Source: Lautropia sp. SCN 69-89 (GTDB taxonomy: Bacteria > Pseudomonadota > Gammaproteobacteria > Burkholderiales > Burkholderiaceae_E). Taken from it: a stretch of 64,000 nucleotides of DNA. A program made the position numbers and the translations under genes. The notes beneath the pieces were generated by a model, which saw nothing but the letters and a program-made list of their open reading frames with translations, had not been told where the DNA came from and made no database searches. Of this stretch, positions 6,704-45,052 are shown one piece after another (within the stretch, counting starts at the first letter, position 1; the number at the start of each line of letters is the position of its first letter). Location of the stretch: positions 62,001 through 126,000 of the forward strand of contig MEED01000015.1 in the NCBI GenBank assembly GCA_001724855.1, read 5' to 3'.

Positions 6704-7859
6704 ATGCAAGGCCCGATCCGCGTCCTGGTCCTGAACCAGATTTCCCAGCACGGGCTCGATCGCCTGCCGGCCGAGCGCTACCTGGTCGGCAAGGAGGTCG
6801 CGCATCCCGACGCGATCCTGGTGCGTTCGGCCGACCTGCACTCGATGGACATTCCGTCCTCCGTGCGCGCGATCGGGCGCGCCGGCGCCGGCACCAACAA
6901 CATCCCGGTGGCCGCGATGAGCGCGCGAGGCGTGCCGGTGTTCAACGCTCCCGGCGCGAACGCCAACGCGGTCAAGGAGCTGGTGATCGCCGGCATGCTG
7001 ATGGCGGCGCGCAACATCCCGGCGGCGCTGCGCTTCGTGACCGCACTCGATCCCGCGGCGCCCGACATGGATCGCGCGGTCGAGAGCGGCAAGAAGGCCT
7101 TTGCCGGGTTCGAACTGGCCGGCCACACGCTGGGCGTGATCGGGCTCGGACGCATCGGCTGCCTGGTCGCCGACGCGGCGATCCGGCTCGGCATGAACGT
7201 GATCGGCTACGACCCCGAGATCACCGTCGACGCCGCCTGGAGCCTGCCCTCGCAGGTGAAGAAGGCGCATTCGATCCCCGAGATCCTCAAGACCGCGCAC
7301 TTCGTCACGCTGCACGTGCCGCTGGTGGCGGCCACCCGCCACCTGATCGGGGCGGCGACGCTTCCGCAGATGCGCCACGGCGCGGTGCTGCTGAACTTCT
7401 CGCGCGACGGCGTGGTCGACGAGCAGGCAGTGCTGGACGCGCTCGAAGCCGGGCGGTTGCGCCACTACGTCTGCGACTTCCCGAGCGCTGCGATCAACGG
7501 GCACGCGCGCGTCACCGCGCTGCCGCACCTGGGCGCCTCGACCCGCGAAGCCGAGGACAACTGCGCGAAGATGGTCGTCGACCAGATGCGCGATTACTTC
7601 GAGAACGGCAACGTTCGCAACGCGGTCAATTTTCCCGACGCGGTCGCACCGCGCGAGTCGGGCTACCGCGTGGCGATCGCCAACGCCAACGTCGATGGCA
7701 CAGGCTGGGCTGAACATCGGCAACATGCTGAACAAGTCGCGCGGCGAGATGGCCTACACGATCGTCGACGTCGACAGTCCGGTGCCCGGGAGCGCGATTG
7801 CCTCGATCGCCGCGATCGCCGGCGTGCTGGCCGTGCGCTACCTTCCGCAGCCGGCCTGA
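6704..7859 (+). CDS. serA: D-3-phosphoglycerate dehydrogenase SerA, frameshifted in the ACT domain
   Basis: The catalytic and NAD-binding parts are complete. The Rossmann motif G-L-G-R-I-G, the G-R-A-G-A-G-T-N-N block and the C-terminal P-H-L-G-A-S-T-R-E-A-E motif are all present. After N-A-N-V (codon 7691) the reading frame breaks. The rest of the ACT domain continues in another frame from ATG 7695 (M-A-Q-A-G-L-N-I-G-N-M-L-N-K-S) to TGA 7857-7859. About nine expected residues of the ACT start are missing, so this is a deletion of 3n+2 bases rather than a single-base slip. As written, the original frame reads on to 7894 with an unrelated tail. The enzyme could still be active but would lack its regulatory ACT domain; an assembly error is equally possible. 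Confidence 0.88.
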
Positions 7860-7976: not shown

Positions 7977-8982
7977 ATGGACCGCCGTTCCCTGCTGAAA
8001 GCCGGCGCTGCCGGTTCCGCCACGCTCGCCGCCCCCTTCGTCGTCACCCGCGCCGCGCACGCGGCGAACTACCGCGCCGAATACCGGGTATCCACCGTGG
8101 TCGGCACCGCGTTCCCCTGGGGCAAGGGCGCCCAGATCTGGATCGACCTGGTGCGCGAGCGCACGCAGGGCCGCATCAACATGAAGCTGTACCCCGGCGT
8201 GTCGCTGATCAACGGCGACCAGACGCGCGAGTTCTCCGCGATCCGCCAGGGCGTGATCGACCTCGCGGTGGGGTCCACGATCAACTGGTCGCCGCAGGTC
8301 AAGGAACTGAACCTGTTCTCGCTGCCGTTCCTGGCGCGCGACCATGCGGGACTCGACGCACTCACGCAGGGCGAGGTCGGCAAGCGCATCCTGCAGATCG
8401 TGGAGAAGGCCGGCGTGGTGCCGCTGGCCTGGGGCGAGAACGGCTTCCGCGAGGTCACCAACTCCAAGCGCGAGATCCGCACCCCCGCCGACATGAAGGG
8501 GCTGAAGTTCCGCGTGGTCGGCTCGCCGATCTTCAACGACACGTTCACTGCGCTGGGCGCCAACCCCACGCAGATGAGCTGGGCCGACGCACAGCCGGCA
8601 CTGGCGTCGGGCGCGGTCGAAGGCCAGGAGAACCCGCTGCACATCTTCACCGCCGCGAAGCTGCACACGCTGGCGCAGAAGTTCGTCACGCTCTGGGACT
8701 ACGTCGCCGACCCGCTGATCTTCGTGGCCAACCGCGACGTCTGGAACGCCTGGACTCCGGCGGATCGCGACATCGTCCGCGCGGCGGCGATCGAAGCCGG
8801 CAAGCAGGAGATCGCGATCGCGCGCAAGGGCCTGAGCGGCAACGACATGTCGATGGTCAAGGAAGTCGAGGCGCTCGGCGTGAAGGTCACGCAGCTCACC
8901 GACGCCGAGAGGCAGGCTTTCGAGAAGGCGATCCCTCGTCAAGCGCGCCGAGGCCGCGGTCGCGGCGCGCCGGAAGGCCTGA
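7977..8982 (+). CDS. dctP: TRAP transporter substrate-binding protein DctP, frameshifted near the C-terminus
   Basis: Periplasmic solute receptor of a TRAP transporter. A twin-arginine-like signal (D-R-R-S-L-L-K-A-G, then a hydrophobic stretch ending near A-A-H-A-A) covers residues 1-30. The body shows DctP-family features such as F-S-A-I-R-Q-G-V-I-D-L-A and M-K-G-L-K-F-R-V. After A-F-E-K-A-I (around 8933) the frame breaks. The expected tail L-V-K-R-A-E-A-A-V-A-A-R-R-K-A continues in another frame and stops at 8980-8982. Around 14 residues of the last helix region are missing, again a deletion of 3n+2 bases. As written the original frame runs to 9218. The ligand is unknown. Confidence 0.88.
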
Positions 8983-31985: not shown

Positions 31986-32072
31986 GCCCAGATGGCGGAA
32001 TTGGTAGACGCACCAGGTTCAGGTCCTGGCGGTGGCAACACTGTGGAGGTTCGAGTCCTCTTCTGGGCACCA
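31986..32072 (+). tRNA. tRNA-Leu (CAG)
   Basis: An 87-base class II tRNA. The acceptor arms GCCCAGA and TCTGGGC pair, followed by A and an encoded CCA. The anticodon stem CCAGG/CCTGG holds loop TTCAGGT with anticodon CAG. A variable arm and the T-loop TTCGAGT are present. It is the only RNA gene found in the window. Confidence 0.97.
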
Positions 32073-32089
32073 TCGAGCGTCGTCCCCGC

Positions 32090-43859: not shown

Positions 43860-45052
43860 TCAGGCGGCGTCGGGCGGCTCCTCGGATTGTCGTTGCGCGA
43901 CGCTGCCGTATCGGCGCCTGACGTAGTCGTCGACGATCGCCTGGAATTCCTCGGCGATGCGCTCGCCCTTCAGGGTCACCGTGCGCTGTCCATCGACGAA
44001 CACCGGCGCCACCGGCGCCTCGTCGGCCCCCGGCAGCGAAATGCCGATGTCGGCATGCCGGCTCTCTCCAGGCCCGTTGACCACGCAGCCCATCACCGCG
44101 ACCTGCATCGATTCGACGCCCGGATAGCGCTGTTTCCAGGTCGGCATCTGCTCGCGCAACCACCCCTGGATGCCTGCGCGACCACCACCTCGCGGGTGCG
44201 ATCGCCGCCCGGCTCGGGCGTGAGCGAGACGCGGATCGTGTCGCCAATGCCCAGCTGCAGCAGCACCGCCATCGCGGCCGTGGAGGCGACGATGCCCTTG
44301 CTGCCCATGCCTGCCTCGGTGAGCCCCAGGTGAAGCGGCCAGTCGCAGCGCGCGGCGAGATCGCGGTAGACCGAGATCAGGTCCTGCACGCTCGACACCT
44401 TGGCCGACAGGCAGATCGCGTCGCCGGGCAGGCCGAGCTGCTCGGCGCGGCGCGCGCTGTCGATCGCCGACGCGACCAGCGCCTCGCGCATCACCTCGCG
44501 CGCGTCCCAGGGCTGCGCGCGCGCGGCGTTCTCGTCCATCAGGCGCGCGAGCAGGCTCTGGTCGAGCGAGCCCCAGTTCACGCCGATGCGCACCGGCTTG
44601 CCGTGGCGGCAGGCCACCTCGATCATCTGCGCGAAGTTGTCGTCGCGAGTGCGGCCGGTGCCGACGTTGCCCGGGTTGATCCGGTATTTCGACAGCGCCT
44701 GCGCGCAGTCGGGGTACTGCGTGAGCAGCTTGTGGCCGTTGTAGTGGAAATCGCCCACCAGCGGCACGTCGACGCCCATGCGGTCGAGGCGCTCGCGGAT
44801 CGCGGCCACTGCGGCCGCCGCGGCCGGCGTGTTCACCGTGATGCGCACCAGCTCGGAGCCGGCCCGCGCCAGCGCGCCGGCCTGCGCCGCGGTCGCAGCG
44901 ACATCGGCGGTGTCGGTGTTGGTCATCGATTGCACGACCACCGGCGCGCCGCCGCCCACGCGCACGCTGCGCGCGCCCCAGGCGACGCGCATCGTGCGCG
45001 AAGCGCGGCGCGGCGCCGGCCCCGCAGGCATCGGCAGGCAGGGATCGCGCAT
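43860..45052 (-). pseudogene. ispG: IspG (GcpE) 4-hydroxy-3-methylbut-2-enyl-diphosphate synthase, frameshifted with loss of cysteine ligands
   Basis: The N-terminal barrel is normal (S-M-T-N-T-D-T-A-D ... [20 protein letters not shown]). At 44169-44176 the frame breaks. The next frame resumes at [12 protein letters not shown] and continues to the end with [10 protein letters not shown]. About 35 residues of the usual protein are absent, including the C-P-G-C-G-R motif that supplies two of the three cluster cysteines; only the Cys of G-C-V-V-N-G-P-G remains. IspG is normally essential for isoprenoid synthesis, so this is either an assembly error or requires another copy. Neighbours rodZ and hisS fit the standard locus. 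Confidence 0.88.

Follow-up and report, generated by a model that had tools for sequence, protein, structure and literature searches.

IspG / GcpE (4-hydroxy-3-methylbut-2-enyl diphosphate synthase; NF001540, TIGR00612 and PF04551) is an enzyme whose 4Fe-4S cluster is described, in a passage of PMC9919496, as held by three cysteines together with one glutamate. The window analyzed here, a 64,000-nucleotide stretch of the Lautropia draft genome, contains an ispG gene (approximately 45052..43860, minus strand) in two pieces, both of which match this family in order. An intact version is present in the near relative G005, whose protein aligns with the solved IspG enzyme 2y0f over residues 29-417. 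Unlike IspG / GcpE, the gene in the window lacks 33 residues, including the motif CPGCGR, and its two pieces lie in different reading frames. The three cluster cysteines of IspG we take to be those of CPGC and MGC; of the corresponding sequences CPGCGR is absent and [10 protein letters not shown] is present.

A second situation to which the locus may be compared is the false loss of genes through assembly error in vertebrate genomes. As set out in parts of PMC9516821, conserved genes there look broken or missing because sequence is absent from, or wrong in, the draft; these features are shared with the present case. The difference lies in composition: according to the same parts of that source, vertebrate false gene loss tracks G+C-rich sequence, whereas the segments missing here are not richer in G+C than the stretches with which they were compared.

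The ispG locus and its missing segment

The N-terminal piece of ispG (44174..45052, minus strand) corresponds to residues 1-293 of the G005 protein, as judged from open reading frames, family matches and tblastn, and shares 97% of its amino acids. It is contained in an open reading frame (45052..44093) that is IspG-like as far as EVVVAQ and is thereafter out of frame. The C-terminal piece (43860..44172, minus strand) corresponds to residues 327-431 (90% amino-acid identity), contains IQGWLREQ in a frame different from that of the first piece, and retains the cysteine of [10 protein letters not shown] (residue 357). A tblastn search with the whole G005 protein places the two pieces in frames -1 and -3; the residues between them, 294-326, are missing, and CPGCGR (residues 311-316) is part of this segment. 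The gene does not, therefore, form the single open reading frame of IspG / GcpE. An earlier note on this DNA had described an N-terminal part ending at VVVAQ, a change of frame and a next piece beginning at IQGWLREQ, and the sequence, the open reading frames and the family matches bear this out. Its estimate of around 35 absent residues with CPGCGR comes to 33, and the two cysteines it described as lost are indeed those of the absent motif.

Membership of the IspG / GcpE family is indicated by PF04551, which scores above its cut-off for both pieces. Of two further models, TIGR00612 gives 283.7 bits for the N-terminal piece (cut-off 280.25) and falls below the cut-off for the C-terminal piece; NF001540 is below its cut-off of 345 for both, with 322 bits for the N-terminal piece.

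At the level of DNA, a gap of exactly 103 bp is seen directly at the junction (44173..44174, minus strand) when the window is aligned with its near relatives G005 and G006, and 12 relatives were lined up over the locus; the figure of roughly 103 missing bases given earlier was thus accurate. The flanks align normally with both G005 and G006, the junction is clean, and the contig contains no N. Alignment continues on both sides of the gene, showing that it occupies the place where G005 and G006 keep their single copy. Substitutions on both sides of the gap favor the same codon position, as would be the case within one reading frame.

In order to determine how regularly the missing segment is kept, 109 related loci were examined: 29 from relatives (30, with the Lautropia genome itself left out) and the best 80 of at least 581 collection stretches encoding a relative. 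The criterion for retrieving them was similarity to the N-terminal piece, in which CPGCGR does not occur. In each of the 109 the motif is present in one open frame across residues 280-390, and for this reason we do not attribute the lesion to chance. Among the matches listed, the nearest named organism is Zeimonas arvi (83%). A match to ispG was found in 57 of 61 genomes, the Lautropia genome included; the other four gave none, by family search as well, and all four are drafts (completeness 65, 68, 78 and 90%). One further genome, G015, has only a partial ispG; the length of the locus suggests that its contig ends inside the gene.

Pathway context and the search for a second copy

The Lautropia draft comprises 3,808,117 bases (3.81 Mb) in 70 contigs and is estimated to be 95.6% complete. 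The earlier note had reasoned that, if the lesion is real, an active ispG must exist elsewhere. No second ispG was found in the draft, in which PF04551 matches only the two pieces. A search of the same genome with the missing segment of G005 returned 40 short, weak matches at E values up to 10 (the best being 27 bp at 89% identity, E 0.005), none of them a copy. The mevalonate pathway, also proposed as a source of rescue, was represented in our search by HMG-CoA synthase alone, for which there is no match in the genome.

The MEP genes searched beside ispG were those for IspH, Dxr and IspF. The IspH domain, the IspF domain and the N-terminal domain of Dxr are observed to be whole, with no stops. 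Given these intact domains and the absence of HMG-CoA synthase, the cell appears still to depend on the MEP route. The earlier interpretation of the broken gene thus stands as regards the lesion itself, how large it is and which cysteines are lost, while the active copy that it expected elsewhere was not found in the draft; the proviso that all depends on the lesion being real was apt.

Deletions in other conserved genes and the origin of the gap

The contig that carries ispG (132.5 kb) was compared with the corresponding parts of G005 and G006. A frame-breaking indel was counted for one genome if it distinguished that genome from each of the other two by an equal length and at positions no more than 4 bp apart, provided that the flanks were at least 75% identical. 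G006 aligns well only from approximately 25.6 kb of the contig onward and some stretches align with neither relative; the count therefore covers part of the contig. Over the compared portion the Lautropia genome shows eight such events: three block deletions (29, 41 and 103 bp) and five single-base events, among them two that compensate for one another. Of the blocks, the 29 bp are absent at 7692..7693 (plus strand), in a D-3-phosphoglycerate dehydrogenase-like gene (serA), and the 41 bp at 8933..8934 (plus strand), in a TRAP transporter solute-binding protein-like gene (DctP), both genes being named from the G005 translation. Like the gap in ispG these deletions are directly seen; they are blunt, break the frame, lie in conserved genes and are present in neither close relative. 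At the serA-like gap one substitution phase dominates in both flanks, in keeping with a single reading frame; substitution-phase counts on either side of the gap do not decide for the dctP-like gene or for frr (below).

A similar gap is observed in frr, on a different contig (C14). Approximately 77 kb of this contig was compared with G005. G014 was added over some 10 kb and G006 over 18 kb, and coverage by relatives other than G005 came to only about 23 kb of the stretch. The comparison with G005 alone yields 22 frame-breaking gaps of at least 5 bp and does not assign them to either genome; six were inspected, and only that in frr is carried into the argument. Where further relatives provide coverage, the only block confirmed as specific to the Lautropia genome is the 8 bp deletion inside frr (at approximately 67208 of the contig), which stands against three relatives (G005, G006 and G014) and has flanks that are 92-100% identical. 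It lies in a part of the contig with several other G005-only gaps that can be assigned to neither genome. Ribosome recycling factor (RRF), the product of frr, is matched once in the Lautropia genome, split over two frames. In E. coli, according to a passage of PMC7538156, RRF is encoded by an essential gene; by analogy, frr would be essential in the present species. The 8 bp gap would then be a lesion similar to that of ispG in a gene that cannot be lost, as expected of an assembly error, and because a living cell should not lack frr, this lesion is most likely false.

On this basis we consider it very probable that the organism carries an ordinary, intact ispG, and that only the draft assembly lacks the 103 bp. 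The assembly would hold scattered short false deletions (8, 29, 41 and 103 bp in the stretches examined); at each gap two correct flanks may have been joined without the bases between them, during assembly or gap closing, and not, we infer, in the cell. Because the indispensable frr is cut likewise in the same draft, the draft, and not the bacterium, is probably at fault, and the similar deletions on the ispG contig and in frr lead us to prefer assembly error over a broken pathway. False short deletions are the simplest reading, for they explain at once the state of ispG, the whole MEP genes among those searched, the lack of HMG-CoA synthase and the broken frr. The case carries a caution: a draft estimated to be 95.6% complete may still present core genes as broken.

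The clean junction, the contig without N and the normally aligning flanks would equally fit a deletion that is real and recent, confined to the strain or to part of the population, in cells that take up isoprenoid precursors from outside or form a minority variant bound to die out; a recent event would likewise keep the flanks conserved. Such a deletion is nevertheless unlikely. The only frr found in this draft carries a comparable break, and no living cell would be expected to tolerate it; the further MEP domains included in the search are intact; and the genome is not reduced, since 3.8 Mb falls within the 2.6-6.1 Mb span of the listed same-genus genomes. We regard it as very unlikely that a relative of the Burkholderiales whose genome is of normal size has truly lost IspG, retains the remaining MEP genes among those searched and survives on isoprenoid precursors supplied by its neighbors; a real lesion would imply isoprenoid auxotrophy in a lineage not expected to show it.

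Two further explanations were weighed. An intact second gene might lie in the undrafted part of the genome, the present copy being a decaying duplicate, and with an estimated completeness below 100% something may indeed be missing from the draft; yet none of the 57 genomes that matched has a second full-length copy (in four a short additional match is seen), and the copy in the window sits at the single-copy place of its relatives and encodes an N-terminal piece 97% identical to the G005 protein, which makes a duplicate extremely improbable. It is scarcely conceivable that the pieces are rejoined after transcription, by frameshifting, bypassing or an exon encoded elsewhere: the frame past the gap is still conserved, as rejoining would have it, but recoding cannot make up for the lost codons of two cysteines, and a search of the draft turned up no other copy of the missing segment.

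Indels in the relatives and candidate causes of drop-out

The reading of the gaps as false deletions was set against the indels of the two relatives. G005 has 27 events in the three-way count: one block difference of 266 bp and 26 indels of one or two bases, which resemble errors left over from long-read sequencing. G006 has 54 events, five of them of at least 4 bp; among these five blocks the substitution phase changes at two, is unclear at two and is consistent at the fifth, which has another gap beside it. With five blocks in G006 and one in G005, the Lautropia genome is not alone in having block indels. The weight of the argument is in the location of its blocks in conserved genes, above all frr.

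Several candidate causes of the gaps were considered and rejected. Single-base sequencing error finds no favor in the count: with five single-base events, compared to the 26 small events of G005, the Lautropia genome does not look rich in small errors, and errors of this kind could not yield a gap of 103 bp in ispG. Extreme G+C-content is not supported as a cause of drop-out, the missing segments being ordinary in this respect. Nor is strong folding, for 44-57% of 300 random 160-base stretches of the relatives are predicted to be at least as stable. A join by way of a shared repeat or overlap was likewise set aside; the ends of the segments share only 0-1 bp in the sequence of the relative.

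Elsewhere in the window, single-base indels that set the Lautropia genome apart from both relatives are located at positions 880, 19516 and 24804. At position 32075, beside a tRNA-Leu gene (31986-32072), there are ten extra bases compared to G005; the match to G006 breaks at the same position, just past the tRNA-Leu gene.
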